Shown here one piece after another: positions 642 to 29,940 of a stretch of 64,000 nt of DNA. The stretch lies in NCBI GenBank assembly GCA_017535725.1, contig JAFXTO010000017.1, positions 36,875-100,874 on the forward strand, written 5' to 3'. Position numbers and translations under genes: made by a program. Source of the DNA: Bacteroidaceae bacterium (GTDB lineage Bacteria; Bacteroidota; Bacteroidia; Bacteroidales; Bacteroidaceae). The notes below the pieces were generated by a model. That model worked only from the letters and a program-made list of their open reading frames with translations. It did not search any database and had not been told where the DNA came from. The first letter of the stretch is position 1; each line of letters opens with the position of its first letter.

Positions 642-707
642 TTAGAGGTCCTGTGTGTATCGTGTTTTGTGTAGTGTGTAGTCTATTTTGAAAAAAACTT
701 TTTTTTT

Positions 708-753
708 AAGTAGGTGTTCATAATTAGTTTTATGTATTTTTGAATACCTACTT
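708..753. repeat. 13-bp inverted repeat with 20-bp spacer
   Basis: Arms AAGTAGGTGTTCA (708-720) and TGAATACCTACTT (741-753) are complementary with one mismatch. A run of nine T lies just left of the left arm. On the minus strand this is a hairpin followed by A, so it is not a classical terminator in either direction. It may be a protein-binding or cruciform site. Function unknown. Confidence 0.6.
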
Positions 754-810
754 CAGAGAAGACCTGCTTGCATAGTTTATTTTTCAACGTTGTTGTTATC
801 TCTTTTTTTC

Positions 811-1298
811 AACGCCGAGGCGCAGAGCCGCAGATTTTTTCGAGACATTCCAGGCTGTTTTCAGAGCATTACAGCTGGCCCTCACGCGCTTATTGTCGAT
901 TGCTGCGACTAAGTACGCTCGGCTTTGCCGCTTCTTCGAGCGACAGCGAGTCTGAAGAACTTGTCTTGCACTCTCTGAGCGCTGAGAAGTCTACTTCGAT
1001 AACAACACTCAGTTGTTCTCTTTGTAGCCACCTATCGGTGAGGTCGCCGAAGCAGTGGGAACGCTGCGCGGGTTCCCGCTGCGCGGAGGTCGCGGAGGCC
1101 TACGGACTCTAAACAACTCTAAACTATTGAACTACTCTACACTCTAAACTAATAAAAGCGCAGCTCTCCGCGCGTTCTGCAGAGCACAAACCTCGGCTTT
1201 GCCGTTTGTGCGCCTTCTGCGTCCTCACCGAAGGTCAACTGCTATGTCTTTGCTTCCTCTTTTCTTGCAGAACCTCTGCGTCTTTGCGCCTCAGCGTT
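811..1298. repeat. Inverted-repeat-bounded gene-free segment
   Basis: The left arm at 811-834 (AACGCCGAGGCGCAGAG, continuing) and the right arm at 1275-1298 are reverse complements over 24 bp with three mismatches. The interior holds GC-rich hairpins and two copies of CTCGGCTTTGCCG (near 919 and 1193) but no convincing gene. The overlapping plus-strand ORFs have no family features. The arms belong to the AACGC-GAGGCGCAGAG type of simple repeat seen in some Bacteroidota genomes. It could be a non-autonomous element or a relic, but I see no target-site duplication. Confidence 0.5.
1184..1211. repeat. Hairpin, GCACAAAC/GTTTGTGC
   Basis: A perfect 8-bp outer stem (1184-1191 with 1204-1211) encloses an inner GGC-AAA-GCC type stem. 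It lies inside the inverted-repeat-bounded segment and has no T-run. Its role is unknown. Confidence 0.6.
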
Positions 1299-1325
1299 AA
1301 AGATAAAATTAGCTTCCATAAAACA

Positions 1326-1362
1326 GACAGCAGCTACACTTGGATAAGGTGCAGCTGCTGTC
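1326..1362 (-). terminator. Probable intrinsic terminator of the 8959-aa giant gene
   Basis: Perfect 10-bp arms GACAGCAGCT and AGCTGCTGTC, extended inwards by imperfect pairing, lie about 75 bp past the giant gene's stop codon. On the minus strand the hairpin is followed by TGTTTTATGG, a short T-rich tract. Position and strand fit the end of the long minus-strand transcription unit. Confidence 0.7.
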
Positions 1363-1374
1363 ACTTTTTATGGA

Positions 1375-1426
1375 TGGGTCTAATGGGGACTTTGGGTCTA
1401 ATGGGGACTTTGGGTCTTATGGATCC
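1375..1426. repeat. 18-bp tandem repeat just past the giant gene's stop
   Basis: TGGGTCTAATGGGGACTT occurs at 1375-1392 and 1393-1410, followed by a diverged third copy. It begins about a dozen bases past the stop codon. Its half-unit spacing and GGG-centred sequence resemble the 9-bp minisatellites in the 5' coding ends of the upstream fimbrillin and giant genes. Confidence 0.8.
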
Positions 1427-1437
1427 CCATTCACCCC

Positions 1438-4400
1438 TTACGGCGTCGTATCACCGATTTTCACCTCGGTGTCCCTCTTCACGCTACCGCTATCACCGCC
1501 GCCATAGACATTGCCCATGATGGTAGCGCCGTTGAAGACGTTGACCTGCGTCCAGACGGAATTGGAGAACAGATTAGCATCCAAGCCGGATATACCACGG
1601 CTGGCGCCATACACCTCACCGCCATAGACTGGGTTGTACTTCCATCCTTTGGTTGTGTCGAATGGCGTGCCAATGGTGACAGCACCCGCTCCACCGATGT
1701 TGACGGTATTCTTTGACCACCAGCCCTGACCGATGGTTGTGACACCGGGGGCAGGATTAGCGGGAGCTGGGATGCTAGCATAGGTCGCATCACGCTCTGT
1801 TGTACCAACCTTGTAGGCCGTTTCCGTTCTCGTGGGCGGAACGGCAGGAGGACCGACGCTGGCCAGCGAGCCACCGCCATAGACATTACGGTGGATGATA
1901 CCGCCGAGGATGTCCACCGTCGTGAAGCGAAGCACGCAACCGGCATGTTGGCTGTAGTCCTCTTCCTTAATGGGCATTGAATAATATTCGATACCTTCAA
2001 CGTTATCATCAATTTTTCCATCATAGTTGAAGTCGAACTTATACTTGCCAACACCCGAGCCTGCGCCATAGACATTGCCTCGGTGCAGCCACTGCGCGTC
2101 GTCGAGATTGGTGGTATAGCTATCGTTTTTGTCTTTGAGTACTGAGGGGCCATAGGGCAGACCTATCTCACCGCTATTAACCACCACGAAGGCATCGCGG
2201 CGTACGCGACCGTCCTGAGCACCACCATAGACGGATCCGTAGATCTTCGGGCCATACGATTCCCAGTTGGCAGCATCCTCCTCAGATAATGCCTTGAACG
2301 CATCGCCTGTGATAATTTCTCCAACAGCATGAGCACCTACGCCTTCGCCATATTTCGTCTTACAGCGATATTTGCCCTCACCGATGGTGACGTGCGTCTC
2401 ATTGACATAGCCGTTGAACCATTCGGGACAATAGAGATAGCGATAGGACTCTCTGAGGTTGGGTGTAGCCTTACCGCGACTACCACCAAAGACGTTACCA
2501 GCAGGCAGTTCGTCCCACAACGCCGTGGAACCAATCACGCCGCCAAAGAGGTTCACATAGGTCTTGCCGCTGCTGAGGAAGTAGTCGGCAGGGGTCACAG
2601 GTTTATTTAGGGAGCCAGGTGCACCCGTCAGGACAATAGGTTTCTCCGGATCAAAGTCTTTACTTGGTGTCCACAACACATCGTCAATCGTCTCACCATA
2701 GCCTGTTGAATAGAAGTCGTCAGAACCGCCGGCATAGTTACCGACGCCCACGGAAGCCATATAGCCGCCGCCCAACACATTGTTCAGCACTCGACCGTCG
2801 ACCATCGTGAGGTGCGTGTTGCCATAGACCTTACCTGCTGTCCAGTCGAAGAGATCCATATCGTCACTCTTCTTGGCAGGCGTTCCAGCCTTCGGCTGTA
2901 CAGCACCATCTCCAGTCTCGACATGTGTCAGCGTACCCTTGTACAGACCTTCACCGCGGCCACCGCCGAAGAGCGAGTGGCTGACGAAGCCGTTGGTCAG
3001 GGTCACATGGGTATCGCCCATGACGTGACCGTTCTCACCGCCACCGAAGACGGAGCCTTCGATACAATCCTCGTTATAATGCTCACTACCCAACAACGTT
3101 GACGGGTCTTCATCGTTATATGGTAAATCTACGGTCACGTAACTCTCCTTGACGTTGGCCAAATGTGCCATGATGTAGCGATTGCCGGCATCACCCTTGG
3201 AGCCGCCGTAGATATTACCGTTGTCGAGACCTACGACACGGTCGCTGCCCATTCCGATGTGTCCGCCCTTGATATCAACGGTGGCTACACCGGTGTTTTC
3301 AGCATACTCGAACTTATACGGCCAGCTCAGGGCGAAGCTGGTGGTTTCAGAGGTGTGCTTAGCCAAACCTGTTCCTCCGTTGTCTACGATTGTCGTATCA
3401 CTGGCGTTCGTGATGGTTCCCACCGAAGCAATGGAGCCACCGCCATAGACGTTACGGGCAATCAGGCCGCCCTTCACCGTGACTTTGCTATTGCCAAACA
3501 CGGCACCACCCCACGGGTTGTATAACTCGTATTTCTTTTCGCTTTCGCCCGAGCCGACTTTATAGGTGTAGGTATCCTGACCGCAACCGGCGCCATAGAC
3601 ACCACCACGGTTGTTGTCCACTTCACGCGTCTTGGTATCGATTACGTTACCTTCGCCGTCCTTGATTGTTGCCCAATAGCCCGACACAACACCCACGGTA
3701 CCGCTGTAGATGTTGACTTCTGAGTTCGCACGGTTGTGACCGTTCTCACCGCCGCCATAGACGTTACCGGTAATCAGAGGTGTAGCGTAGGTACCTGCGC
3801 CATCAGTACCGATATTGACAACGGTGTTGTTGACCCAACCCACCTTGTTGTAAGGATCGTTATTAATGGCAGGATCTGCCAAAGCCGAGATATCACCGCG
3901 CGACGAACCATTGACCATACCGTTGTCACGACCGGTGATACCGATGGTGCCGCCCGTGATGTTGATGGTGGCCGTACCCGTGCCTGTAGTCCAGTCGTAA
4001 GGAACGCCAGAGGGGATGTAGCTGGGATCCGATGCACCTTCTGTTCCTTCATGGGCAAGTCTGAAGGTTCCTACAGAACCCAGAGCGCCGCCGCCATATA
4101 TATTATGGTATATGGTCGGTGAACTCAGGACATCACCAGCTGCCTTGCCGGCGGTTGGATGCGCCTCCACCCAAGTCGCGTCAGCTACCGTGTTCTGAAT
4201 AGTGATGTTGGTATTACCCTTGACCTGTCCGGTGTGGAAGTGGCCCACGTTGCCCTTACCGCCACCATAGACATTTCCCATCATGGCACCGCCGAACTTC
4301 ACGTAGCCAGGATTATCGCTATCCATGGCTTTCACTTCGGCACGACCTATCTCGCCGCCGCTGATGGTGACGTAGGTATCACCACCAACAAGAGCCATCT

Positions 4401-7400
4401 CGCCACCGCCGAAGACGCTGGCGCGTACCTTGGTGTCGCCGCTGATATCCACTCTGGTATCGTAAACCACTTTACCGCCATGGTCTTTGTCCTTGGATAA
4501 GTCGTGTTCTTCACGGCCTTCACCACCGCCATAGACGCTGCCATAGGTGTATAACACATTACTGTTACCACTTGCGGGGTAAGTACCAGGAACAGCAATT
4601 GTCGTCTTCACAGGCGTTTCTCCGGTAATCTCCGTACCGATGGTACCACCTGTGATGATGATTTCAGTTCCAGTGACCACATTATTTCCATCTACTATGA
4701 TAGGATCTCCGTTATCATCCAGCACTTTATGGGTACCGAGGACAGAACCCATCTCACCGCCACCATAGACGTCACCCATAATCCACGGGTCGCCGCTGAT
4801 GGTCACCTTGGTGCTCTTGACACTACCCAGCTTGGTCCATTCGACAGGAGTCGTAGCAGTGTTTAGTTCACCATTCTCATCATAGGAAGAAATCGGGTTC
4901 GTACCATCCAATTTGAAGAATCGTCCCATACCTCCGGCATAGACATTGCCACCCTTGGTATGCAATACTCTTCCGTTGGAGGTGTCGAAGGTGGTATTGG
5001 GCACATTGTAGTATTTCTTCCAAATTGTCCAGTCTGAAGGACTCCATTTTGTGAAGTCTGTATTCAAGGTTTTACTTAATTTAGTATTAACTTCTGCGAT
5101 ATTAGCCTCATTCGGAATTTTAAACTCATTCGTATTACCGATAGTACCGCCAGTGATGTTCATGGTGACGTATCCACGCTTGAAGTTGGCAACCTCGGTG
5201 ATCCCGTCATCAGCGTAATTATCAGGACGCATCGTTCCATACTTGTCAGTTTCTGTAGCCTCGTACAGTCCGTAGCCCACAGAGCCCAGACGACCGCCGC
5301 CGTAGATAGAGCCCAGCATCTCGCCGGCATAGATGTTCATCGTCACGCTACCACCCACGTTACCAGCTGTGTAGGCATCGCCTGCGTAACCGCGACCGCC
5401 ACCGAAGACGTTACCGTCCACGTAGGACGTGCCCCACGTGCCAATCTTAGGACCATAAGCATCCACGGCCGGTTCATAGCCTTCCGCGCCTTCCGTGCCG
5501 ACGGCATCCTTTGCGGGTACGCCGATGTTCATCGTGACATCACGCAAGACGTGACCATCCTCACCACCACCGAAGGCGGAACCGTAGATCCATCCTCCAG
5601 AGATGTTGACTTCCACATCCTGCACATTGGTCTGTTTGTTGAACAATACACGTGGATCACCCATACCGCCGCCGAAGAGGTAGCAGGTGACGGGGTGAGC
5701 GGCAATCTGCCCTAAAGTACGTGGCACGCCAATGGTACCACCTGACATATTGATGGTACATTTAACATCCACGTTGGTCATCTCGTTACCGCCATAGACA
5801 TTGGTCAGGATATGTCCACCCTTGATATCTACTACGGTATTGCCACCAACTTCACCAGCCTTCCAGTGCCATTTGCCTGCGGCGTATGGGAAGTAACCGG
5901 ATCCACCGCCGAAGACGTTGCCATAGAAGGTATATCCGTTGGTTGCAACAAGTGCACCACCCTTGGATTCATATTTATCTGCAAATACATCGTGGGGGGC
6001 GTATGGCGATTCATACTTCCAGCTGGCGCACTCAGGCAGTGAGGAAGTGTAGTTCGTCTCACCATCTTTGTATAGACGTCCATCAGTCCACTCTTTTGAA
6101 GTGTAGCGACGATTGATGCTGTACGGACTTCCAAGGTACGTACCGTCATCCGCCATCTGCACATAGCCATTACCAATCTGGCAGTTGTCTTTAATGGTCA
6201 CATACGTATCGTGCTGCACAAATCCTTGCTCGGCACCGCCGAAGACATCACCCTTGACGAAGGCGTTGTCGCCGATGGTCACCTTAGTCTGGGTGGCCAA
6301 ACCTAAGGACTCGATATATGTCAAGTACTTGGCTTCCTTATTATCGCCATAATTAGCGGTACTAAAGAAATCCTGCGCATTGTTAATCGTCGTACGCCAC
6401 GGATCGCCAGCCCAGGCGTTGCCATCTACACCGATATAAGGCATGGCTCCTTGACCAGCGCCAAAGACATGGCCTGAGTTATCGGGACCGCCTACCTTTG
6501 TCATCGTCATATCATTGGGACCAATCTCAGCATTGTCCTGGACGATGACGGTGCAGTTGCCGCTCTTCTCGTTCTTCAACGACTCCGGCAATCCAGTATT
6601 TGGATTAACATTGTAGCGGCCTACTGAGGCAATCTGGCCACCGCCATAGACGCTGCCTTTCACCTTGGCCTGACCCTGGATGGTGACAGTGCTGTTGCCA
6701 CGAACCAGAGCAGAGTAACCGTGGGTGACAACGCCCTTACCGGCACCGAACACATCGCCTTCAATAGTGGGTTCGTTCGTCTCGTCGTCTTCATATCCTA
6801 TCGTCACCACCGTGTTCTTCTCCACACGGCCAATCTCACCGCCGCCATAGACAGAACCTTTAACGGTACCGTTGGCAATAGTGACGCTCGTACCGCCATT
6901 ACTGTCAATCAGGCCGTCGCCGTCGATGCCCACCATGGCCGACTCACAGAAGAAGGCTCGCTCTCCTTCAGCTATTGCTTCACCCTTGCCACCGCCGAAC
7001 ACATTACCGGTAATCGTGGCTTTGTTGCGGGCGTTGAGAGCTTTATTACCCGTCACCTCATGTTCATTAGCGTCGAACCAGGCCCACTCGGCAGCAGTCT
7101 TGATGTCGTTGGTGTTTAGGGCACCGATAAGTGTGGCATTATAGGCATTGGCTTTAGCTGCTGTCAGTGTTCCTGTGCCGTCATTTGCAACAGCACCTGT
7201 TAATTTCGCATTGTAGGATGCTGCATGGGCTGCAGAAATTTCAGCAGTACCATCTGTAGCATAAGCAGCCTCACCCGTTAAACCTAAAGCAGTATTAACC
7301 GCTTCGGCTTGTTCTGCTGTTAGTTCCGTACCACTTGCAATAGCTCCAGACAATGTAGCGTTGTATGTATTGGCCTGGGTAGCATTGAGTGTTGTGGGTT

Positions 7401-19400: not shown

Positions 19401-22400
19401 CGTTGGCACCGCCATACATGGCTGTACTCACCGTACCGCCTTCCATTGTGACGGTGGTAGAACCGAAGTTCTTCGCCACGATATCCTTGGCAGGGTCTTC
19501 ATCATCACGACCCAGACCGCCGCCGAAGACGCTACCGTTCACATTACCATTGTAGATATTGACCGCTGTGGTCTTATTACCGTCTGTTGCTGCGATGTCG
19601 GTGGGATCGCTCTCATAAGTAGCTCCCTTGGTTGCGTTCACATTACCCAAAGCTGAGCCGCCATAGACGCTACCCTGGATAGCGGGTGTACCGGTACGAC
19701 CGCTGTCCGTTCCATCCAGATTGAAGCTCTTGCCGATATGTACGGCCACGTTGCCGGCGACCGTCGTTCCGGCACCCTTACCGCCACCATAGACATCACC
19801 GCTACTATAGTTTTCTTTCGCAACGCTTGCATCTTTTGCATACCCGACAGTTCCACCCGTCAGCATCACCACAGCATCTCCACCCACATCGGCCGTGTTA
19901 CCACCACCGAAGACGTTCAGGATACCATTCCCTGCTGCCGTAGCCGTAGCCTGGATATCGATTCTGGTATTGCCGTTCACGGCCGACTCATCGCCACCGC
20001 CGAACACACCGCCGGTCTGTGCACCGGTGTCACTGCCGTCGGCTTCGAAGATCTTACCTTTAACCAGCGTGTTGCCCTTGATCGTCAGGTCTGTTTCATC
20101 TACCTGACCGAGAGCAGTCAAATCCACATCGGTATAGAGGTAATTCTTTCCGTCGACAGTAGCCATTCCGTCAGCGCCATTCGCAGGCAGATTCGCAACC
20201 TGCTTCCATTCATAGACATCTGTTCCCGACAATGTGGCAGGTTCGAACATACCAGACGTTCTATTAATGTTAGGTGTCTGCGTAAAGCAAGGGGCTTTTC
20301 TGACGAGGACCTTCGGCAGTGTGGCAGAATAACCACCGCCAAACACGTTACCATCCACTGTGCAATCGTCAAGCACCGACGTGGCCTTACCAGCCACCTT
20401 TCCCAGGCTGCCGCCGCCATAGAAATTCTCTGTGACATGACAACTCTTCAACGAGGAAGTCACATCGTTGCACGTGGCCAACGTGAATGAAGCAAACTTC
20501 ACGAAGAAGCGACCACCCGTGTTACCTTTACTCCATATAAAGAACTCATAGTCCATATCGGTGGCCACACCAGGACCTTTCTTACCATATTGGGCATCAG
20601 TACCACCGCCACCTTTTGAGTTGGTCGTCGCACCGTCAAAGTATTTTCCACGATCGGTAGTGTAATGGCCTTGAAGAGTAGTGCTCCAGGCTGGTGTCGT
20701 ATTATCGTAGTACTTCTTTCGGGAATAAGAGGTTCCACCATAGCCGCCACCAAAGAACTTAGTAAACGTACAGCCTTCCGCATTGGTTGTTACAGTCTTG
20801 CCAGTTTGCATGTCACCGAACTTAGGACCGCCGCAATAAATACCCACATGGCTGTTGAAAATATCAACGCGGACATCGCCCGTGATAGGTCTGGCTGCAT
20901 TCACACCACCGCCAAAGAAGTTTTCGATATCGGCATCGTAGATTAACCAACGAACGTCACCGTTGATGGCTTCCTGGGAGGCACCTGCAGCCTCCACGAA
21001 GTGACCACCACTGATATAGCACTCGGCATTGTCGGTTGTCACCGCGGCATCCTGGTTATAGGTTCCCGTGAGGTAGAAACCGTCATAGTCGCCACCGGTT
21101 ACAGACACGGGTGGATGAGGTGTCGAATAGGCACCATCACTGTGTGTACCCAATCCGAATTCATGGAACCATGCGTTGCCTCCCACATGGATATATTGAG
21201 TGTGTCCATCCACTGGACAATTCTGAGTGGAAACGAACTGGTCGAACACGCCGCCAAGGAGAATAAGCGGCTTGTCTTGCATGTCATTGAAAACACCAGC
21301 AACATCGCCAGGTTTACCATAGCCCTTGTTCTCGTATTCAAACTGAGTGAAATAGATCAATGTGGTATTGGTAATCTCGAACCAGCCTTTGGTTCGGAAG
21401 ATACTCACATTAGACAGATTAGTTGAACCATTAGGCTTTTGAGCCTGAGCCGTACCCGGCACGTTCAGGAAATCGAAACGGATGGGACAAACGGCATAAC
21501 GGTCGATATGGTGATTGATCAGACTATAGTCCGGTTCATTGTCTTCGTCCAAGTCAATGGACATGATTGTCAGTTTCTTGCTACCATCGGTGGAAGGCGA
21601 AGTGTTCAGATGATAGTTGCCCACCAGCACCACGGCATTGTCATAGACCGTAGCTCCGCTGAGTGCATTCAGTGCATTGGTCATAGATGTATGTACCGTT
21701 TGATCTGTACCGCCTATATTTATCTTTCCGTTATTGAATGTCTTGGGTAACTGGGAAACGCTTTGAGCACCATAGCCACTATTATACACCACATCCAAAC
21801 GTTCGTCTGCGAGGAAGGCGGCTGTGCCCCAATACGGTTCAATGGTGATAGAGGTCACCCCATAAGGCACATCGAAGTAGGCACCCTGCGAGAAGATACG
21901 GCCACTCGTACCAAACAAATCCTTATCGGTACTATTACGATCAGCGAAATTGTAACCGCCCCACTTGTCACCCGTGTCAAAATGAGCTGAGCCATCTTTA
22001 GACATACCTGTTATCTTCCAACCGGTCACCACTTTGCTATTTCCTTCAGAATCCGTCGTATAGTTACCCGTACCTACCTCATTGTAATAAGGCAACTGCA
22101 CCTTGTCGTAATTGAAGTTGTAGTCATCGAAGTCTTTATCGGTGCGAACAAGGGTTATTGACGACTTACCCGCCTTGATGGCAGCACCAGTCGGACCACC
22201 AGTACCTACACTGATATTCACGGTCAAATCACCAATCTTACGACCTTTGTTACGGTTCTCCTCTGTGTTGGTGATGGATGCACGAGTGACATTTTCACCC
22301 GTTTCCGCATCAAAAGTATTAATGGGGTCATAGTTGATGATAGACGGATAGGAGTCTTGTGACTTCAAGATTGGATAAGGTGCAGCTGTCTTGTCCAGCA

Positions 22401-25400
22401 CCCACTTGGCCATCTCGTTATCCTTGCCTTGTCCCTTGCTGGCATCACCAGTTGCATAGTAAGCGGCCAATCGCCTGTTGCTGTTCAACAGCTGACGGTA
22501 TATCTCGAAACGGGTCAGGTATTTATCTTCTACAGCTAAGGCACAGTTGTATTTATTGTTGGTAATATGGCTTGTTGGCAATTTCTCATAAGCATAGTAG
22601 TTGAAGGTGTTCAGACCGCCGTGCACGTTATTAATATTCGATCCGCCATAGACGGGTGATTTGTTGGAACCACCAGTGATGTCGCCATAGAACATGCAGT
22701 TCATCACCATGGTTCCCTTTCCCGCGTTTATCATGGCTGCAGTAGTAGCCACAGCATTATAGCCCACAATACCACCCACATCTGTGCCGTTTGTGATATT
22801 GGCATAGCTGTAGCAGTTGATGACGCGCGAAGAGCCATCAAGATAACCTACGATACCGCCGACAAAGTCATCACTGGCGCCGATAGTACCACCGTTGATA
22901 CCACAGTTGTAGATACGGGTTGCGCCTGTTGCATAATTGCAAATGGCACCAAGTGCTGTCTTGTCTTCTTTATTTATAGTAACTGTAGAACTGCCACTGC
23001 TGACAGAAGCACTCTCGATAATCACATTCTTGATGGTAGCGCCATCGGCATACGCAATGAAAGGTGCAGAGACACTGAAACTCTTATCTATCTGACCTTC
23101 GATGGTGCCCTTAAAGGGAGATGCCTTAGTACCGATAGAACCAGAAGCGGTGAAGTCGTTTGCCAGCATATAGTAGCCACCCATGGCACTAATCTCCGAC
23201 GAATTGTGAACAATCTTAGGCACTGGGGTGAGCGTAAAGACCTGAGTTACTGAGCCGTTAGGCTTTGCAAGGGTTGCGAACGACTGCATTACCTTGGTAT
23301 TGTCGAAACGGGGCATCAGGATCATATTGCCGTCATCGTCTGCAACAACCATAAAGGTGGCATTGGTGATTTGCATCTTCACCTGGTCGAGACCGATAAT
23401 GCCATGCTGCTTCTCGTTCAAGTTTTCCAGAGTGATACCGCTCGATGAACCTGCCCACTTGTTGGTGATGATGGAACTGCTTGTATTGGCAGTGAAATAA
23501 CGAGTCTCTGTCTTAACACTCTGTATCTGTACGTTGTAGGGGTCGAAGCCATTCTGGCCAGCAGCGAAGTATGCGGCTTCGGTCGCTGTCTTGGTCAATT
23601 CTCCGTATTCTCCTTCGTATTGATAACCCAACTCTTCGTCGATATCGAAGTTGGGCCTCACATACCATTGCATTTCCTCAGGTACATCCGTGACACCCGT
23701 TAGGTCCATATTGGTTGAAGATAGCGACGTGCCGTCAATCTGTGCATACTTGCCGTCCTGCTTAATCAGGTAGGGGGCCGCCGATGTGGCTCCCTTGGTG
23801 GCGGCACCAGCGTATTTGCTGGCATAATCGGCTTTCACATCGTAGGTGACATACCAGTCACGTTCCTTACCGTTCACGAGGGCTTGTGTGTCGTAGTTAG
23901 GAAGGTTCGGTTCTTGACCAGAAGCGGTTATATCAGCCCTACCCAACTCGTCTGTGGTGTATTCAGTGCCATCTGAATTCGTAGCATAGTCAGAGACGGT
24001 GTACTTATGATAGCCAGGGACCTTGGTACCAGTCTTCCAATAGTGGTATTTCTCAACCATCGGGCTGCTGTACTTATGAAGCTCGGCATAGCGTGCTGCA
24101 CGTTCTACTTTCTGCGCATCAGTCAAAGTAGCAGGATTACCTGAAGGCAGCGGCAGACGGACAATCTCCCAGCCGTGCTGGTCGAGCAGGATGAGCATAG
24201 GCTTGATCTCCGTCTCCACGAACTCGAAATAACCGTCACCCATGCCAATGGTTTGGAAAACGTGCTCTTCTTTCAGAAATTTCTTACTCGTGGTAGGTGT
24301 GCCACCTGCGCTTGCGGCATCGTTGTTATGCATCCAAGGTTGCGAATTGGCCCAGGCCTCATAGACATGCCAAGCAACAGTCTCTAAGGGGGATTCTTTC
24401 ACGGTCACTGTCTCTAACTCCGTCTTTTGCGTGGCGCTCAGCGTCACATTACGACCTACCTGTGTCACCTTGGTGGTCAGCTTACCCTGCACCGTGGGGT
24501 TGTTCTTCCAATACTGCTCAAAGGAGTTGACGGTGCGGCGTTCTGTGGTTGTCCCATTGGATATAGCATCCACAGTCACCAACTTCAGGCTTGACAACGA
24601 TGATCCTAAAATCATATACTCCGTGGCATCACCGTTGTCGGCTTCTGCACTCTCAGCTCCTCCTGTCACCAAAGGATTATCATTGGTAACACCTGTCACG
24701 ATGTGAGTGGTTGCTGGGCTTCCATAGCTAACAGCATAGGTCTTCAGATAGGAGTGGAAATTGCGAGTGTTGTCATCGTCAATCTTATAGTTTGTCTGTG
24801 TCTGGTAAGACGAAATCTTCACATGGTAGGGATCCAGATCGGCAATGGTATTCACACCAGGCGTGAGTTTCTTTGCCGGCTCAATATACCACAGCCAACG
24901 TGTACGTTCGCTGGCGCCGCTCGCCAACTGGTCTTCCCATTTTTTTGTGCCATAGACATAGAGTCCACCATCGCCATTGCTATATGGGAAGACAGCCTGC
25001 CTCTTCTCGGTCATTACTGCATCTGCCGACTCCTGACAGAATTCATCACCAGCAGCAAACTGAAGCCTATAGGCCGTATTCACTTTATTATCAATGCCGA
25101 GGCTGTTGCGACCGTCCAGGTCAAGAAGCGAATTATCGACATCATAGGTGACGTAGATGACATTGCCATCACCTAAATCTTCAATACCATCGATTCTGTC
25201 ACCTTCGTCACAGGTATATGTGTCTGTTCCCTCATTATATGTAGCCGCCTTGTAGAATTTATAGGTACACAGCGGGTTCTGCCACGCTGCTGGCAGCGTG
25301 AGACTACCCGTATAATCAATACCACTTTCAATCTTCTTGTTGGCCTTGTCTATCAGGAAGAATGAGAGCGGGAGTGCAGCAGGGGTCACAATCAGGCTGA

Positions 25401-28317
25401 TGGTCTGGCCTGCGGCATTCTGCAACGTGACGGTGCCTGTTCCGTTTTCACTCACGATATTCTGGGGATCAGAGCCCTTCATGATGAAGGTTTCCGAGGC
25501 TCCGAGTGTCAGGTTGGGCGAAGCATAGTGTAGGTATTTTTTCGTGTCCACATTCTGTACGAATACCGCATAAGGGTCGTTGCCGCCGAAATACCACATA
25601 TAAGGCCTTGTGGTCTTGGTCGCAGTCTTCTTGGCTTCATCGGTCTCCCCTGTTGCAGCTTCCTTATCCACAGGTTCTCCACTATTGTCATCATAAAGGA
25701 ATTTATAACCACTTTCATCAACCTTGACATTAAAGGTTCTAAAGGCCCGCAAATGCAGGAACTTGTCCATCAGATGATCTGTGGTGTAGGTCACATAGAT
25801 GTCGGCATCGCCTGACGGCGTAGCGGTGATTTTGTGCTCATTGTCGAGATTGTTGGCATCAAAAACGCCATCCATCGTGTAGAACTGTATAGTCTCATTA
25901 GAGATATATGCACTTTGAAGGGCTGTTGGTATAGAACTATAGCCACTCAATGGTGTCCCTGCTGCCTGTTGGAGGGCCTCACTGCTGATGGCAATCGTAT
26001 TCGAGCGATTGACGATATGATAGGTGTACTTTGGCAGTGAAAAGGTTACAACTGCAGATTGCGCAGTGCGATCTGTTGCACTGGCTGCGACAACCTTAAT
26101 CTGGTTTAATGCCACATCTGGAATGAATGGAGCCGTATATTTTAGTGTTGGCGCAGTTGGGTCGTCCCCAACAGCTGGCACCACAGGGTCTTCCCCGTCT
26201 AACCTATAATAGATGTCCACACCAGGCGTAGGACATGTAATCGTAACTGTTCTTGTTCCATCTGTGGCCTGCGTGATGACAGGGTCAAGAGAGAAATGAG
26301 TGGGAACAAATGACCAGGCAGACGTACCGGTGGCTCTTACCTTCTGCACTCTCAAGGTGGTACCGCTCCTGTCCATGGTGCTGAAGTTATTCAGCGTCTG
26401 GTCCCGCACCATCTTAGGAACAATGAAATAGTAATCCTCCGAGGTTGACCGCGCCCAAGCGAACTGATAGCGCTGGAGCTCATCCCCCGTTCCAAGGTCT
26501 GCGCTGGTCTTGAAAGCGGCAGCATTGTTGCTCGTACTACCACCTGTATAATAGAGATATTTTCCCGTCTGTGCGTTGAGAATGTAATAGTAGGTCAGCC
26601 AGTCTGCATCGGTGGCGTCAGCGGCCTTCTCCAGATACCAATAGGTAGTCTCATCGGCAGACGCTGCTGCAACCATCGTGGCATTATCGTTGTCTGCTGC
26701 AGGTGCCTTCACATAGAACTCATCTCCACTGCAACGCAGCTGATAATGCGTTCGCGAACTGCCATCCGACACCGTGAAAGGCACCATCGTGTTGAGGGCA
26801 CTCTTTGTGACGAACTTCCATCGGGTGTTGGCAGATTTAGTATTGTCTACAGAATAATTAGCAGTATTTATAACACCGTTATTGGCATTGTTTGTATTCT
26901 TATTGATAAGAATATTCTGCCCGTACGGGTATATATTATATGTTCCAGCTGTTGGTGATTCTACTAGCTTAAACTTGAACTTGTTATCGTTGGCATTTGA
27001 ATAGGTATCCAGATAAACATTGCCGCTACCGTCACAGCGTAGGTATTTGCTGTTTGCATTGTTGACAATATAATAATACTGTACACCATCCTCCACACCA
27101 GCACTCTTGAAATACCATTCCATAGAGGGGCGGAACAATGATGTAGTATTGACCCGAAGAACGCTATTATTGTCTGGATCTCCGGGAATCATATAGAAAT
27201 GGAATCCCTGATGGTCGCCCGATGTCCAATTGTTGTTCTGGCTTTGTATTAAACGCTTGTGCGTTGTTCCACAAAGAACAGTGGGAGTGAAAGTGGCAAT
27301 ATTTGACTCCCAATCTTCTCCATACGCAATGGCCCTAATGGTTGTTACGTTATCTGCAGGGTCAAAAGCTTCCGTATAAACATCGCCATTGCCATTTGTT
27401 CTAGATGGCTTAGTTCCATCAGTGGTATATTTAATAGTAACACTTCCCGTTTGCGCCGCCGTAATTTCAATTAGGTCGCTTGAATTGAATGCAATAGTCG
27501 GACGAGTGATTACGTCTTCTAGATAGAATTTGCCATTGGCGTCATTTTCGGTAAAGATACAGACAATACCGGCCGTATTTTGATATTGATTACCTGATGT
27601 ACCAGGACCACCCCCCTTGCCACTATTACCAACAAGATTCTTATAGTGACCATTATTGACTGTTAACCATTTATGATCAGGGTGTTCAGTTTTGTTATCA
27701 TGGTCTAATTCATGACCATCGGTTATTCCCATAGGTTTGATTACCATATGAGAATTATTATAGAGATATATAGCAAATAGTGCTTTGTCACCTAGAGCAG
27801 CAAGAGCTTCGTCTGAAGCAACATCTTCCAAGTGTACACGAATACGGTCCGGGTTAGTCGTTGTGCGAATTTTACCATTGGACACCAAGTATTTACTGTC
27901 TTTTTTGTGTTTGATATAGTAATAATCAGAATTAGAAGCCTTTTCTATAATCCATACTGCTTTAGTGGCATCATATACGCCATCACGGCATTGGTAAGTG
28001 GTAAGAAACGGATTATTGTCACCAGCTTCGAAATCATCAGTAGCTTTATACGAACACCATCCTTCTGTAGGGCACAGATAGAAATTATTGGCAGGGTTAC
28101 TGGAATCGTATGTATACTGATTATCTTTAGCACCCACTCTTTGGGATAAACTGGCTATATAGTATGTTCCCGAATAGTCGGTCTGCGCCCACGCCCCCGA
28201 TGCCCCGAAGGTCATCAGTGCCATCAGGAATAGTATGTTCTTTACGAATGAATAGATGTCTGTAAACTTACCGTTAACATGCATATTTCGTATCATATCT
28301 TTATATGTTGTTTTCAT
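1438..28317 (-). CDS. Giant secreted Y/F-GGG repeat protein (8959 aa), putative surface adhesin
   Basis: One uninterrupted 26.9-kb frame. Residues 1-45 are a signal peptide with a long n-region and a core ending GASGAWAQ. Residues about 45-2450 hold modules of the type YYI...SGKYL, two chitobiase/hexosaminidase C-terminal-like domains (around residues 270-330 and 680-760, pattern YTTDGTKPS), and a GLUG-like stretch near 1720-1860. From about 2470 to the end I count roughly 120 copies of a motif close to VYGGG-xxGxV-xGNTxVxIxGGxI. They probably form a glycine-rich beta-solenoid. The protein ends in mid-repeat (KIGDTTP) with no T9SS-type C-terminal domain, so it is either 3'-truncated or anchored differently. 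It lies downstream of the related 4403-aa gene and a REP-associated transposase, and the terminator at 1326-1362 follows. An open frame this long argues for selection to keep it. The adhesin role is inferred from secretion and context. Confidence 0.85.
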   Translation of the reverse strand: MKTTYKDMIRNMHVNGKFTDIYSFVKNILFLMALMTFGASGAWAQTDYSGTYYIASLSQRVGAKDNQYTYDSSNPANNFYLCPTEGWCSYKATDDFEAGDNNPFLTTYQCRDGVYDATKAVWIIEKASNSDYYYIKHKKDSKYLVSNGKIRTTTNPDRIRVHLEDVASDEALAALGDKALFAIYLYNNSHMVIKPMGITDGHELDHDNKTEHPDHKWLTVNNGHYKNLVGNSGKGGGPGTSGNQYQNTAGIVCIFTENDANGKFYLEDVITRPTIAFNSSDLIEITAAQTGSVTIKYTTDGTKPSRTNGNGDVYTEAFDPADNVTTIRAIAYGEDWESNIATFTPTVLCGTTHKRLIQSQNNNWTSGDHQGFHFYMIPGDPDNNSVLRVNTTSLFRPSMEWYFKSAGVEDGVQYYYIVNNANSKYLRCDGSGNVYLDTYSNANDNKFKFKLVESPTAGTYNIYPYGQNILINKNTNNANNGVINTANYSVDNTKSANTRWKFVTKSALNTMVPFTVSDGSSRTHYQLRCSGDEFYVKAPAADNDNATMVAAASADETTYWYLEKAADATDADWLTYYYILNAQTGKYLYYTGGSTSNNAAAFKTSADLGTGDELQRYQFAWARSTSEDYYFIVPKMVRDQTLNNFSTMDRSGTTLRVQKVRATGTSAWSFVPTHFSLDPVITQATDGTRTVTITCPTPGVDIYYRLDGEDPVVPAVGDDPTAPTLKYTAPFIPDVALNQIKVVAASATDRTAQSAVVTFSLPKYTYHIVNRSNTIAISSEALQQAAGTPLSGYSSIPTALQSAYISNETIQFYTMDGVFDANNLDNEHKITATPSGDADIYVTYTTDHLMDKFLHLRAFRTFNVKVDESGYKFLYDDNSGEPVDKEAATGETDEAKKTATKTTRPYMWYFGGNDPYAVFVQNVDTKKYLHYASPNLTLGASETFIMKGSDPQNIVSENGTGTVTLQNAAGQTISLIVTPAALPLSFFLIDKANKKIESGIDYTGSLTLPAAWQNPLCTYKFYKAATYNEGTDTYTCDEGDRIDGIEDLGDGNVIYVTYDVDNSLLDLDGRNSLGIDNKVNTAYRLQFAAGDEFCQESADAVMTEKRQAVFPYSNGDGGLYVYGTKKWEDQLASGASERTRWLWYIEPAKKLTPGVNTIADLDPYHVKISSYQTQTNYKIDDDNTRNFHSYLKTYAVSYGSPATTHIVTGVTNDNPLVTGGAESAEADNGDATEYMILGSSLSSLKLVTVDAISNGTTTERRTVNSFEQYWKNNPTVQGKLTTKVTQVGRNVTLSATQKTELETVTVKESPLETVAWHVYEAWANSQPWMHNNDAASAGGTPTTSKKFLKEEHVFQTIGMGDGYFEFVETEIKPMLILLDQHGWEIVRLPLPSGNPATLTDAQKVERAARYAELHKYSSPMVEKYHYWKTGTKVPGYHKYTVSDYATNSDGTEYTTDELGRADITASGQEPNLPNYDTQALVNGKERDWYVTYDVKADYASKYAGAATKGATSAAPYLIKQDGKYAQIDGTSLSSTNMDLTGVTDVPEEMQWYVRPNFDIDEELGYQYEGEYGELTKTATEAAYFAAGQNGFDPYNVQIQSVKTETRYFTANTSSSIITNKWAGSSSGITLENLNEKQHGIIGLDQVKMQITNATFMVVADDDGNMILMPRFDNTKVMQSFATLAKPNGSVTQVFTLTPVPKIVHNSSEISAMGGYYMLANDFTASGSIGTKASPFKGTIEGQIDKSFSVSAPFIAYADGATIKNVIIESASVSSGSSTVTINKEDKTALGAICNYATGATRIYNCGINGGTIGASDDFVGGIVGYLDGSSRVINCYSYANITNGTDVGGIVGYNAVATTAAMINAGKGTMVMNCMFYGDITGGSNKSPVYGGSNINNVHGGLNTFNYYAYEKLPTSHITNNKYNCALAVEDKYLTRFEIYRQLLNSNRRLAAYYATGDASKGQGKDNEMAKWVLDKTAAPYPILKSQDSYPSIINYDPINTFDAETGENVTRASITNTEENRNKGRKIGDLTVNISVGTGGPTGAAIKAGKSSITLVRTDKDFDDYNFNYDKVQLPYYNEVGTGNYTTDSEGNSKVVTGWKITGMSKDGSAHFDTGDKWGGYNFADRNSTDKDLFGTSGRIFSQGAYFDVPYGVTSITIEPYWGTAAFLADERLDVVYNSGYGAQSVSQLPKTFNNGKINIGGTDQTVHTSMTNALNALSGATVYDNAVVLVGNYHLNTSPSTDGSKKLTIMSIDLDEDNEPDYSLINHHIDRYAVCPIRFDFLNVPGTAQAQKPNGSTNLSNVSIFRTKGWFEITNTTLIYFTQFEYENKGYGKPGDVAGVFNDMQDKPLILLGGVFDQFVSTQNCPVDGHTQYIHVGGNAWFHEFGLGTHSDGAYSTPHPPVSVTGGDYDGFYLTGTYNQDAAVTTDNAECYISGGHFVEAAGASQEAINGDVRWLIYDADIENFFGGGVNAARPITGDVRVDIFNSHVGIYCGGPKFGDMQTGKTVTTNAEGCTFTKFFGGGYGGTSYSRKKYYDNTTPAWSTTLQGHYTTDRGKYFDGATTNSKGGGGTDAQYGKKGPGVATDMDYEFFIWSKGNTGGRFFVKFASFTLATCNDVTSSLKSCHVTENFYGGGSLGKVAGKATSVLDDCTVDGNVFGGGYSATLPKVLVRKAPCFTQTPNINRTSGMFEPATLSGTDVYEWKQVANLPANGADGMATVDGKNYLYTDVDLTALGQVDETDLTIKGNTLVKGKIFEADGSDTGAQTGGVFGGGDESAVNGNTRIDIQATATAAGNGILNVFGGGNTADVGGDAVVMLTGGTVGYAKDASVAKENYSSGDVYGGGKGAGTTVAGNVAVHIGKSFNLDGTDSGRTGTPAIQGSVYGGSALGNVNATKGATYESDPTDIAATDGNKTTAVNIYNGNVNGSVFGGGLGRDDEDPAKDIVAKNFGSTTVTMEGGTVSTAMYGGANVNGVLEKDTKVTITGGTVGPTPLADPIPNAVFGGGFGEPTQVKGSVEVNIGLSGQAGDGATINGHVYGGGALGNTNVNALINPPAEANTDVKLIKGTINGNVFGGGLGRKEKGAQALVLYENVTEYNTAKGTELTAEQFAVLTTEQKTKIPASDAETAVAAIVGGDVKVLLDGAKLKYDGNETPLTGQIFGANNLNGTPKGHVTVHVKKTVNVDSEKDNLKSNSSTPRDDRTTYDVSAVYGGGNQADYIPTDATITLPDPSDDDYATQLEKKNKACAEVIIEGCDKTSIEYVYGGGNAAAVPAADVTILGSYIIDYVFGGGNGKSTPAFSNPGANIGFYNNGATPYGSGKAVTKLVGCHAHYVFGGSNTKGNVRGGTSILMPEIGTTYSSYDCCTVRDIKEIYGAGNEAEQDGSVTLILGCVHNMVNVYGGARKANVKGGIDLVVTSGSFEGVFGGNDQSGTIQGPITLTIEETGCDPLEIDNLYLGGNQAAYSIYGYKNDGTARTKADYDALSAEDKTAEGLPYADPILNVVSCTRIGKTSGSDLGGAFGGGLGAGAIMYGSPTVNINMIPGKYAADVDSDNDGVNDSKAVGTISNVYGGGKLANVDGSTAVNIGTVEKMAHRTSMGAEIPVADRVQTDVQPAIITGNVFGAGKGQATTATDVDVAMVTGNTTIIIEKASITKSVYGGGELSQVSGDTHITVRGGTIGKDREETATPGEYKYYGGAEFGNVYGAGLGSASGVGFGLVKGNTYITIENTVADATWVEAHPTAGKAAGDVLSSPTIYHNIYGGGALACVGTFDLSTDDNKDTYSVPSAGFPVNWTDDKGKATITITGGTIGIDGHNNGMVFGSSRGDIDDPESIQDKLAWVHDTEVTIGTNGSATGPTLHGSLYGGGENGHVYHDASVIMYSGKVGNPAEYYAYRGNVYGAGCGTDKYYSTGEETHDGHGNYYNPNAGIVRGNTSITINGGNIANNVYGAGSMGKVLGSTSVIINTNGAIGVDGLHDDGNVYGAARGELDLLGRNLIPATDVADNYSSVTSTSVTLTKGTVKGSLYGGGKAGVVHGKVEVTLNGGTVNHDVYGGGALAKTNTQYDKDNETKKTYTTTVTMNGAGDGCTILGNLYGGGLGQLGVAGSAGSPAVYTAVANGTTLTDGETYYTSNTGAGEFKSNGTEVADGTNYFTLTTPAVAAVDAVAAVEADVNGPVTVTVSNGKAANVFGCNNLYGAPKQTVAVNIEGTVAVENGSAISRVFGGGNLAAYTGNPTVAVSGGFVNNVYGGGLGSTAVVTGNTSVTISGTSVIRNDVYGGGSQADVTGSVNVIVSGGTITNNVYGGGALANTNTANWDVSKLVKTYEQITKITANETVVTGLYKEVGDTYTLVSTPDAKAEEGAKYYKIFETAWADGKTSASNTTTVTLVGGKIGNAFGGGLGNTETPVFVYGDVSVRVNNSEDKTTYSGTGAAFTREIAQNIVVGGKNYPTVPTTGSIFGANNFNGTPKGNVTVEIWGTKREDGGAHALGDYEVQAVYGGGNMASYLPAADKVTKVIIHGCSDTSIEKVYGGGNSASVPTTDVTIEGAFDIGYAFAGGNGSMPVRNSAGTWLANAGAMIHGNSKIVARGGRIGDLFGGSDAKGDVLGDPQITKGAQEGETAECDLSITRIFGAGNEGNVTGDVNYILSGCGTADAVQFVHGGSYNAHISGNVNMTITSGFYTNVFGGNDARGSIGGNITIDIEETDACKPIIIHNLIGGGNEAAYPGIKADGTEITTPGSITINIKSATRIDNIYGGGLKSDVKGNVKVNINMRKGSMVNTELLRPASYTGDVIPNVHVTEGHTYINDAIGTIGYIFGGGNEGNVIGDAIVNIGTEKSVKILRRDGNGKFIDASNRFVYDNEGKLIYDEVEGQQVARTVSYEDKNDVLGANITGNVYGGGNLADVKGNTYVNICAKESATPGTYEAVAFGVNDVKIGGDVFGGGKGIANSFQCEKAMVGVVDDGATVTGEGESATYTLKEGGTTVNIGHGTIGTFDNSGNLTAGGNVYGGGEVGRVERNTKVTIGFGDGAAANAKSPVIGGYVFGAGQGVPTHGYSGLVRGNSTVTIQGDAKVGHSVYGAGKLASLGRYWIATDDTHGVEIGMPYGLKCGGKSTVVIQGYAEIGPNNMTMPTFDGNVFAGGKGVLPYEGVGPEGAGRYYMNNSGQYLWESYAGDDKETAYLKYIKTLGITETTDVTIAGNAFIKGSVYGGSENGHVRQDTHVMIAGNCQIGNGKGKNVRYTTAQWNGENPSDFTECASWDYGKAATADKKHDPYDKYSNTTGDDGHTFYGNVFGGGSGYFPYKSGKWNPDAGVVGGNTVVDITGGHILTSIYGGNEMTDVKGKCTVNMVGGTLGVPRTLKQIHDHPVTCYLFGAGKGDQRVLFNTWTNVASTNVTVSGGIIYGSVFGGGEDGHVLGDVTMTIGGSTKIGTWGTSYVDGNIFGGGRGFSGDALTAGSVGGNVTVNITGGTMLGSIYGGGRLASVGTFFVNPESPHYGQLQEDFYIESDDLPDGKSVGDAKDTTHGHIKINISGGSIGNGIEGTEEDKGYFDIAHSGNVFGGSMGRIELLDGTTNPIWPELGQSKTSEVNITGNTTHIYRNVYGGGEFGAVRENAYVTIGGTLVGTTPTIDSPSTAPQIDGCVYGSGHGSDKTEPTLVTVHWKGEGMAAWQDLDYVYTPLQWAGLVGGNTTVSVFGGTVGQSVYGGGELASVGIIDYRASKTGTGDDTGVTGYKYLTVKKHDAQDQDKKTLYDFGLSWPYEFTYVANKPNSSAVGGLATVNVAGGTVSQFVYGGGKGQVDFNKGGENDITEQRYTEAFCANVRETQVTIGTKGGSDNPQIRTVYGGGEDGHVEENAKIIINRGTIARSVFGGGKGEGKYMTKLWDPDNATEGQPKASSELTYSWTAGKVYGNTEVIMKGGSVGWFIYGGGNVASVGKGNYSGGADDYSTAGYGETLTGNLWTSTFNPESPESGTNNKDYAWEFQNSGKTTVTIYGGTVGSDGFGDASTNADGIPYGSVFGGSRGRSAASCKRSPRYRYVPNFFLGYTNKSIVNIGGSSSSDIDATGPTIKGSIYGGGQDGHVRNSTEVHIYKGNITGQDVDAAGRSGNVFGAGSGIGTFDTGKKDDSDNPIMAVNNSSGSVTCTSWVEVNGGTIARNVYGGGALASVGPPNTGQGFDEFNTTSKDYPAVKDNPARSHGSKSYSRVDINGGQIDGSVFAASRGPGEAYLASNPTFDTSDGSYDPDKYATVIWSYLYVKDGTIGDNVYGGGEVGRVKQDTEVHLTGGSIAHDAYGGGKGTRTDGATMDGIAADVGGNTTVELNGTTAADGTITVVPSTSKGCSVQKIFGCNDLNGTPKGHAKVHVHATQHKRTSTIGDKYKKFDLVSNYTIDNYSTYTFDGKKLSDLAADAGINTSATPYTTYMGILAGSGTDDATKKAKEQALANLIDLIGESKYDVLAVYGGGDLAKYDPTDAHSDNPTTKAAARTEVIIDGCDLTSIKQVYGGGNAAPVPATSLTINAAYEIDEVFGGGNGKDNYSIQEGENTVWYENPGANVGYDNFRHYVKFGETGYSVGTHGSGSKADPYKAIENSNATNKEYRQAYYMYGEGEAKTDVIGGRIHYAYGGSNERGNISTLAMSVYQNTSDCAVVVDKSYGAGKNAEVDAQTVLSMECTEYTAELFPTSYGSNVNSDVVLNITNGHFGKVFGGNDRAGKINGSITINVQESSCRPIIIGELYGGGYQAGYSIYGYYDSGRTDDNGKTIYLPRTKAQYDSDLKAALDELGANPTENQKKDKLIEKGLYGFPKHDPRINIISATEIGTIYGGGYEALVVGSPYINVNMEPGIITRDYVAKPPTGTGGTMNYEKGPHTINDSYGTYTYEVTNVPSSTVDAELAIGKIGHIYGGGNLADVQGNTSIEIGTGRWIARWDNSGNPIWETENATSGDKFTYRQTAAAVTYTQEECNAYNATLTNALPSEPTTLNATQANTYNATLSGAIASGTELTAEQAEAVNTALGLTGEAAYATDGTAEISAAHAASYNAKLTGAVANDGTGTLTAAKANAYNATLIGALNTNDIKTAAEWAWFDANEHEVTGNKALNARNKATITGNVFGGGKGEAIAEGERAFFCESAMVGIDGDGLIDSNGGTSVTIANGTVKGSVYGGGEIGRVEKNTVVTIGYEDDETNEPTIEGDVFGAGKGVVTHGYSALVRGNSTVTIQGQAKVKGSVYGGGQIASVGRYNVNPNTGLPESLKNEKSGNCTVIVQDNAEIGPNDMTMTKVGGPDNSGHVFGAGQGAMPYIGVDGNAWAGDPWRTTINNAQDFFSTANYGDNKEAKYLTYIESLGLATQTKVTIGDNAFVKGDVFGGAEQGFVQHDTYVTIKDNCQIGNGYVQMADDGTYLGSPYSINRRYTSKEWTDGRLYKDGETNYTSSLPECASWKYESPYAPHDVFADKYESKGGALVATNGYTFYGNVFGGGSGYFPYAAGKWHWKAGEVGGNTVVDIKGGHILTNVYGGNEMTNVDVKCTINMSGGTIGVPRTLGQIAAHPVTCYLFGGGMGDPRVLFNKQTNVQDVEVNISGGWIYGSAFGGGEDGHVLRDVTMNIGVPAKDAVGTEGAEGYEPAVDAYGPKIGTWGTSYVDGNVFGGGRGYAGDAYTAGNVGGSVTMNIYAGEMLGSIYGGGRLGSVGYGLYEATETDKYGTMRPDNYADDGITEVANFKRGYVTMNITGGTIGNTNEFKIPNEANIAEVNTKLSKTLNTDFTKWSPSDWTIWKKYYNVPNTTFDTSNGRVLHTKGGNVYAGGMGRFFKLDGTNPISSYDENGELNTATTPVEWTKLGSVKSTKVTISGDPWIMGDVYGGGEMGSVLGTHKVLDDNGDPIIVDGNNVVTGTEIIITGGTIGTEITGETPVKTTIAVPGTYPASGNSNVLYTYGSVYGGGEGREEHDLSKDKDHGGKVVYDTRVDISGDTKVRASVFGGGEMALVGGDTYVTISGGEIGRAEVKAMDSDNPGYVKFGGAMMGNVYGGGKGNVGHFHTGQVKGNTNITIQNTVADATWVEAHPTAGKAAGDVLSSPTIYHNIYGGGALGSVGTFRLAHEGTEGASDPSYIPSGVPYDWTTGTGTATINITGGTIGITGRDNGMVNGSSRGDISALADPAINNDPYNKVGWVNNTVVNIGTDGAGTYATPLITGNVYGGGENGHNRANSEVNIYSGTVGVVSGYWATIKDGEGNVIDTKTREVDNNRGGVYGAGCGQDTYTYKVGSGESEKKYELYNPWGGAVFGNSKVTVKGGLIARNVYGGGSIASVGTITNASDTTIVDNGGTGLAKHTSETTSFALSWPYKFEYAENTGVATVDIKGGHIGMGSDRVVGLDNGNIYGGSKGDAGNRYIMAHLANVKESYVTVDLPYNDEDPSTLLGSEHYNEDCIEGSVFGGGENGHVMGDTHVTLTNGFVSHSLFGGGRGEGLYKGTLTHVETGDGAVQPKAGTPAKKSDDMDLFDWTAGKVYGNTHLTMVDGRVLNNVLGGGYMASVGVGNYAGGSDDFYSTGYGETIDDVLWTPSKDFDPEKPIVLTGAPGSLNKPVTPADYFLSSGKTYVNLFGGVIGSTALWDELPAGNVFGGSRGKATPNLRESYRYLYCPEWFNGYVNETHVTIGEGKYRCKTKYGEGVGAHAVGEIITGDAFKALSEEDAANWESYGPKIYGSVYGGAQDGRVRRDAFVVVNSGEIGLPYGPSVLKDKNDSYTTNLDDAQWLHRGNVYGAGSGVGKYKFDFNYDGKIDDNVEGIEYYSMPIKEEDYSQHAGCVLRFTTVDILGGIIHRNVYGGGSLASVGPPAVPPTRTETAYKVGTTERDATYASIPAPANPAPGVTTIGQGWWSKNTVNIGGAGAVTIGTPFDTTKGWKYNPVYGGEVYGASRGISGLDANLFSNSVWTQVNVFNGATIMGNVYGGGDSGSVKRDTEVKIGDTTP
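4094..4176 (-). repeat. 83-bp perfect internal duplicate, copy 1
   Basis: Identical over 83 bp to 17030-17112 inside the same giant gene, about 12.9 kb away, while the flanks diverge. It encodes the stretch around AHPTAGKAAGDVLSS and YHNIYGGGAL. Perfect identity surrounded by diverged repeats suggests recent duplication or gene conversion. Confidence 0.9.
7105..7470 (-). repeat. In-frame insert of about five A-x-x-YNATL repeats in the giant gene
   Basis: Around residues 6950-7070 the Y/F-GGG pattern is interrupted by about five imperfect repeats of roughly 25 residues carrying AYNATLTNAL, TYNATLSGAI, AVNTALGLTG, SYNAKLTGAV and AYNATLIGAL. They are Ala/Thr-rich and look helical, unlike the beta-repeat around them. 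The frame is kept on both sides. Confidence 0.8.
17030..17112 (-). repeat. 83-bp perfect internal duplicate, copy 2
   Basis: Partner of 4094-4176, identical over 83 bp and sitting at the matching place in an earlier supermodule of the giant protein. Confidence 0.9.
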
Positions 28318-29931: not shown

Positions 29932-29940
29932 TTTATATCT

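Follow-up and report, generated by a model that had tools for sequence, protein, structure and literature searches.

The SprB-type giant adhesins of the type IX secretion system (T9SS) are very large secreted repeat proteins of Bacteroidota, and SprB carries its own sorting domain; autotransporter and two-partner-secretion (TPS) beta-helix adhesins have long secreted beta-solenoid passengers. In this report we describe a pair of adjacent giant repeat proteins, A and B, encoded in a 64,000-nucleotide stretch of a Bacteroidaceae bacterium genome (the window; assembly GCA_017535725.1, contig JAFXTO010000017.1, forward-strand positions 36,875 to 100,874). This conserved pair (sometimes trio) of secreted-looking proteins is found in uncultured gut bacteria, of which many come from ruminants, and because the ends of A and B look mutually fitting, a long surface fiber of stacked protein blocks is suggested. 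Two described systems each resemble a part of that picture. According to the available text of PMC7835359, Mfa5 of Porphyromonas gingivalis is a large protein, encoded in a type V fimbria operon, that has a signal peptide and a type IX C-terminal domain; it is a confirmed T9SS substrate located at the fimbrial tip. For the bactofilin BacM, the available text of PMC4372379 proposes a left-handed beta-helix that polymerizes head to tail via its end repeats.

Proteins A and B

Protein A occupies window positions 1438–28317 on the minus strand, as do all of its segments given below, and is a single uninterrupted frame of 8959 codons with an ATG start and no internal stop. A single 8959-amino-acid frame was what the original prediction, made from this sequence alone, had announced, with the strand left unstated. 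Translation, motif counts, and Pfam and NCBIfam scans revealed a signal-peptide-like start, a lectin/chitobiase-like N-terminus, and YGGG coils up to the C-terminus. The putative signal peptide (residues 1-44, 28186–28317), visible by eye in the translation as had been predicted, reads ..NILFLMALMTFGASGAWA and is followed by Q. The non-coil part, the first ~2,490 residues, holds two stretches apiece of Fn3_assoc and CHB_HEX_C_1 (residues 283-344, 27286–27471, among them) and three of RicinB_lectin_2 (including residues 400-481, 26875–27120), all over the Pfam cut-off; the former correspond to two chitobiase-like domains in the original prediction. The GLUG-like stretch named there (residues 1819-1842, 22792–22863) has its similarity, at a sub-threshold 16.3 bits vs the Pfam cut-off of 20.5.

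The coil region extends from about residue 2487 to 8959 (1441–20859; translation and motif count) and contains 73 copies of the strict motif [YF]GGG and 115 of the relaxed motif [YF]G[GA][GSNAR]; 200 shuffles of the residues of A gave on average 2.2 strict copies and never more than 8. The predicted figure of about 120 Y/F-GGG motifs is thus valid for the relaxed motif only, since the strict count is 73. Internal [YF]GGG spacings peak at a quantum of 25-28 residues (603/3834), just 2 of the 3834 are shorter than 24 residues, and the median coil spacing is 62, with many coils parted by insertions. By eye, A also displays an alternating VxVxI pattern and runs of adjoining coils. Because of this spacing quantum, with almost nothing shorter, and the alternating pattern, a beta-solenoid formed by stacking of these 25-28-residue coils is plausible. 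Beta-solenoids rise ~0.48 nm per coil, and ~115 coils would give A a rough length of ~55 nm, or an upper figure of ~120 nm if the whole repeat region (~6,470 residues) were bare 26-residue coils; the solenoid "hundreds of nanometres" long that had been predicted thus keeps a plausible, if unproven, fold and loses its length.

Within the coils are large internal duplications (for example, 48% identity between residues 5002-5609 and 7151-7859), which were found with 1000-residue pieces, a full-length BLAST self-comparison having returned no off-diagonal rows. A conserved X block is present three times (17878–18909, 14116–14997, and 8062–9327, equal to G000:C24:54752-55783, 50990-51871, and 44936-46201, respectively). 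Nothing in Pfam or NCBIfam over curated cut-offs covers the coil regions scanned, in keeping with the undescribed repeat class that had been proposed; no PDB chain was a convincing sequence relative of the coils (best E values, 0.027 and 0.48), the first 1000 residues of A had no PDB match at E values up to 0.01, and word searches of titles and abstract openings in one library of papers found no account of these proteins. A DUF4465 match to one of eight X-block rows (E value, 0.0014), a triosephosphate isomerase match in the PDB (E value, 0.027), and sub-cut-off collagen matches at B and lipoprotein N-termini were attributed to chance or low complexity. Short inserted modules, among them LTDGETYYTSNTGAGEF..ADGTNYF, recur by eye in A (~4114-4150 and 6950-7075) and B (~1783-1813), with a looser form in a lipoprotein-like protein at fimbrillin position (48096–50303), and A also holds a run of NAYNATLxGAL modules.

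At its C-terminus, A stops half a coil past the last YGGG (terminal coil GNVYGGGDSGSVKRDTEVKIGDTTP, 1441–1515), and no C-terminal sorting domain was found there at E values up to 0.1 (Pfam, last 3999 amino acids; NCBIfam, last 1999). Upstream on the same strand, and absent from the original prediction, lies a second YGGG protein, B (4403 amino acids; 30003–43214, minus strand, including the segments that follow), which shares coil homology with A and contains 29 relaxed and 16 strict motifs. It has a signal-peptide-like start, directly past which it begins QIKIGGNVYGGGN, so that the mature N-terminus (42885–42962; cleavage by eye) opens on a coil (QIKIGGNVYGGGNHAEV..), and it ends in a sorting-like domain (30006–30230; TIGR04183, 16.1 bits against a cut-off of 23). 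When 10 of 23 other B orthologues were scanned with TIGR04183, 9 matched and 2 exceeded the cut-off. The genome itself encodes the T9SS translocon SprA (SprA_N, 728 bits, G000 contig 45) and has nine genome-wide TIGR04183 matches, 8 of them over cut-off and B not among them. The original prediction had cast A itself as a T9SS adhesin, a role that is not supported for a protein without the sorting domain whose neighbor B has a T9SS-like one.

Coil ends, split genes, and distribution

Relatives of A are encoded by one gene or by two, A1 and A2. Protein ends were surveyed in open reading frames (ORFs) of at least 200 amino acids with at least four [YF]GG[GS] motifs, of which there were 144 in stretches of 27 genomes and in 76 loci; the loci came from the best 80 of 465 stretches encoding relatives, among 583 candidate genome-contig stretches, and some duplicate one genome. 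ORFs with fewer such motifs (e.g., A1 of G115) were left out of the ORF, end-class, and gene-order counts, in which "sorting-like" denotes a pattern on the last 30 residues rather than a profile model. Among 101 distinct complete C-termini, counts in which orthologous ends are non-independent observations and many genomes are drafts, 71 ended on a coil, 24 were sorting-like, and 6 were of other kinds (two resembling interrupted frames and four carrying different tails). All 23 sorting-like proteins with an available start also started on a coil. The coil ends, with 18-32 residues between YGGG and stop, comprised 8 of VNI type, every one an A1 gene, and 63 of VxIG type, belonging to A or A2.

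Joining the distance from last YGGG to stop with the 8-residue lead of B yielded a spacing of 27-32 residues in 66 of 71 cases, and the C-halves of terminal coils scored 22.6, next to 24.0 for internal coils (standard deviation, 7.8) and −31.9 for random sequence. Starts of B mostly read IxIGG[NSD]VYGGG and those of A2 VxV[KRTNH]G[SN]VYGGG; these are different kinds of start, as the residue preceding G[SN]VYGGG is K/R/T/N/H in 13 of 14 A2-type starts and G in 22 of 23 B starts. For 11 of 41 starts, an automatic rule put the cleavage point too far downstream, and the 7-8-residue lead was set by eye.

A is divided into A1 and A2 in nine distinct loci (G115, G045 = L041, G249 = L113, L052, L078, L081, L086, L105, and L106), and a tenth, G431, is less regular in form. 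A1 has the non-coil N-terminus and a coil end; A2 has its own signal-peptide-like start, a coil start, and a coil end (in L052 and L081, the first piece extends beyond the contig end, with the A1 start outside the sequence). In 7 of 8 aligned rows, and also in G115, the A1 end maps to residues 2817-2819 of window A (19861–19869), the exception being L078; the first piece of L081 failed to align. Window A is therefore equivalent to A1 plus A2 in one chain, and the separate parts stop where the coil would go on. Where one stretch holds all three genes (G115, G045, G249, and G431), the order is B, A1, A2, with fimbria-type genes alongside. Split and fused forms are sisters in the X-block tree for G115/G107 (100/99), L078/L067 (100/99), and G045/L042 (99/91). 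Over its 88 rows, for which the best-scoring of up to three X blocks per protein was used, the split label changed ~12 times, 11 of them forced (shuffled mean, 13.2; 89/500 shuffles as low). Three labels were faulty (G111_2331 was called split though it lacks a signal-peptide-plus-coil start, G045 was labeled "nojct" though split, and L064 was labeled fused though it has signal peptide and coil start); because of these faults and the use of one X block per protein, the change counts should be read as approximate, and more trust can be placed in the sister pairs. The Rosetta-stone argument holds that two parts encoded as one protein in some genomes and as separate proteins in others tend to bind each other. 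In L105, two A1-type genes with different N-termini (512-4063 and 4473-8909) precede a single A2; these could be alternative tips.

The family is common in one genus. A-type X blocks matched 45 of 139 same-genus genomes, the source included (13 of 18 of high quality), 7 of 295 in a sample of the order, again including the source (5 of 184 genera), and 1 of 296 in a sample of the phylum, the source genome alone; B-type N-termini were found in 48 of 139 genomes of the genus and 7 of 295 of the order. The 76 loci are titled uncultured Prevotellaceae, Prevotella, Bacteroidaceae, or Bacteroidales, with a ruminant gut site named for many and horse feces for one. No viral relatives were found in one scan of viral contigs with one 933-amino-acid piece. 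Strong matches (E values below 1e-50 for A and below 1e-15 for B, thresholds chosen after the lists were seen) placed A and B together in 29 genomes, A only in 7, B only in 10, and neither in 93 (Fisher P value, 4e-15, which serves as a guide only, given coil cross-matching and shared ancestry); G006, scored as A only, nevertheless has a B C-terminus preceding A. Of 24 cases, 23 had B upstream of, and on the same strand as, an A-type gene, separated by −29 to 5354 bases and sometimes by an intervening ORF. In the stretches with G handles, complete frames above 1500 amino acids without a sorting-like end measured 1514 (A1 of G045) and 1734 up to 8962 residues, stop to stop, vs 3212 to 4406 for B, which makes A the length-variable part. 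Homologous open frames reach 8468 residues in other assemblies, and comparison of A with each of three near relatives, across the 3176-4095 codons that matched best, gave ratios of nonsynonymous to synonymous substitution (dN/dS) of 0.17-0.22, indicating purifying selection, with dS at 1.3-1.7, near saturation.

A possible surface fiber and its rivals

We propose, at roughly even confidence, that A and B may be two parts of one surface fiber, in which solenoid blocks dock end to end with B as the anchor and A as a lectin-like tip. The coils of both proteins would stack as a beta-solenoid, and the C-terminal half coil of A would dock on the N-terminal half coil of B (where the genes are separate, A1 on A2 and A2 on B) to form one continuous, non-covalent solenoid. 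T9SS would export B, which would fix the fiber on the outer membrane; A would be exported riding on B or by another route, and its variable length would hold a carbohydrate-binding tip distal to the cell, where it could adhere to plant or host material. Counting for this proposal are the end classes and joined spacings, the coil-like scores of the terminal C-halves, the differing starts of B and A2, the split and fused forms with their shared A1 end point, the gene order, the co-occurrence of A and B, SprA in the source genome, and purifying selection. More tentatively, the system may be a heteromeric "split solenoid": giant blocks with uncapped, matching coil ends (the A1 end with the A2 start and the A2 end with the B start) in a fixed order, of which only the last would be T9SS anchored, the unsignaled blocks riding along, with repeated gene fission and fusion at the docking site because covalent and docked joints would be interchangeable.

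Several observations weigh against a docked fiber. The joined spacing of 27-32 residues slightly exceeds the internal quantum of 25-28, and start halves fit the internal profile only in part (mean, 0.4, vs 8.8 for internal and −11.7 for random; 2 of the 38 starts scored, the 554-amino-acid protein of G111 and L067, are not true starts). Penultimate coils have a mean pairwise identity of 0.51 vs 0.59 for terminal coils (random internal pairs, 0.28), and being nearly as conserved they imply that part of the likeness among orthologous terminal coils comes from descent. End classes have exceptions in the first piece of G431 (747 amino acids), which is VxIG type, and in L081 (566 amino acids), which is "other." A single partner was found in 17 of the 46 genomes with a strong match, these being draft assemblies, and B of G346 has no A downstream, its A lying ~10 kb off on the opposite strand. 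The sorting-like domain of B in the window is below cut-off, and how A, without a sorting domain, would cross the outer membrane is left unexplained.

The best surviving rival, which we consider unlikely though worth serious attention, is that A and B belong to one gene family and share regulation within a fimbria-type operon but act as independent giant surface adhesins, with similar ends arising from common descent and from fission at coil boundaries and not from docking. The coil homology of A and B, the ordinariness of tandem paralogues, the near-equal conservation of penultimate coils, and the two A1-type genes of L105 would all fit this account, but it leaves unexplained why a sorting-like domain is in B alone, why a half coil follows the signal peptide at B and A2 starts, and why A1 and A terminate at the half coil that matches. 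It is improbable that T9SS or the fimbrial machinery instead reads the stereotyped coil at the C-terminus of A, A1, and A2 as a separate signal for export or retention that substitutes for the usual sorting domain. Such a signal would suit a protein that has a conserved end and no sorting domain, and the 71 of 101 C-termini that end so; the end of A nevertheless scores like an internal coil, and the end types of A1 and A2 differ. About as improbable is a chain of small, separate glycine-rich domains in place of a continuous solenoid, for which the insertions between many coils (median spacing, 62) and the lack of any known solenoid family over cut-off would speak, and to which the 25-28-residue quantum with almost nothing shorter, the VxVxI strands, and the runs of adjoining coils are opposed. 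A chimeric assembly or decaying gene, conceivable for a draft genome of 72 contigs and 76 percent completeness, with an assembly artefact named in the original prediction among what would overturn it, can be dismissed because of the intact giant homologues in other assemblies and the dN/dS values, alongside 8959 codons without a stop.

Should the docked fiber of A and B prove true, the surface proteins of Bacteroidota would gain a giant repeat family that is unnamed and common in one gut genus, a way for T9SS to display proteins without a T9SS signal would be suggested, and end-to-end docking of beta-solenoids could be studied in a natural setting that is readable from the genes of split and fused sisters.

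Genomic neighborhood and described systems

The original prediction had placed A with pilus genes, and this setting was recovered: proteins with DUF5119 (60453–61742) and DUF3575 (61801–63570), families associated with fimbria operons, are encoded in the window on the minus strand, both over cut-off. In G024, DUF3575 was over cut-off and DUF5119 just short of it (24.8 vs 27). Two lipoprotein-like ORFs upstream of B are in fimbrillin position (43449–44783 and 44944–46284), and two further ones (48096–50303 and 54567–56906) are paralogues of each other, all four on the minus strand. No fimbrillin model (Mfa_like_1 and kin) matched the window's fimbrillin-position lipoproteins over cut-off; at the corresponding place in relatives, Mfa_like_1 was over cut-off in 2 of 5 proteins tested of G131 and 0 of 3 of G024. 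Between B and A lies an ORF (28354–29967, minus strand) that weakly matched REP-associated tyrosine transposase (17.1 bits vs a cut-off of 80). Similar-looking ORFs are found between B and A in G107 and G111 and after A in G078, and those between B and A or beside A in several genomes measure 416-537 amino acids. Two AAA-ATPase_like / PDDEXK_9 genes (46396-47979 and 57504-59099) are within the fimbria-type cluster, and G107 has a similar-looking ORF at the place of such a gene.

Short tandem repeats are another feature of this region. The 5' ends of B and the fimbrillin-position genes contain repeats with units of 9, 18, or 36 bases (43044-43141, 44649-44761, and 46225-46249), which encode low-complexity GLNGANG, LMGLMGP, SRLSRAS, and YRTYRT stretches immediately ahead of the signal peptide's hydrophobic segment; similar stretches are found in proteins of G111, G045, and G132 and vary among genomes. 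Repeats of 8 or 16 bases (TCAACTTG / TCAACTCG) lie upstream of B and its neighbors (43309-43441, 44866-44945, and 46365-46432).

Compared with SprB as it is generally known, A lacks a sorting domain and its repeats differ. Autotransporter and TPS adhesins are alike in having a long secreted beta-solenoid passenger, a fold that is proposed for A and B, and neither an autotransporter barrel nor a TPS signal domain was among the Pfam matches of A or B. Mfa5 shares with this system its large size, and may share a Bacteroidales type V fimbria operon and, in the case of B, T9SS export; a coil-ended partner goes unmentioned for it in the available text (PMC7835359). In the available text of the respective accounts, neither Mfa5 nor bactofilin combines a T9SS-exported fimbrial protein with head-to-tail beta-helix stacking. 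No Bactofilin domain was matched in Pfam scans of A, B, or coil rows; the likeness is in the proposed beta-helix stacking through end repeats (PMC4372379). BacM, as described in that text, is cytoskeletal and stacks on itself, whereas A and B, if the docked fiber holds, would be large, secreted-looking members of an ordered chain of different proteins.
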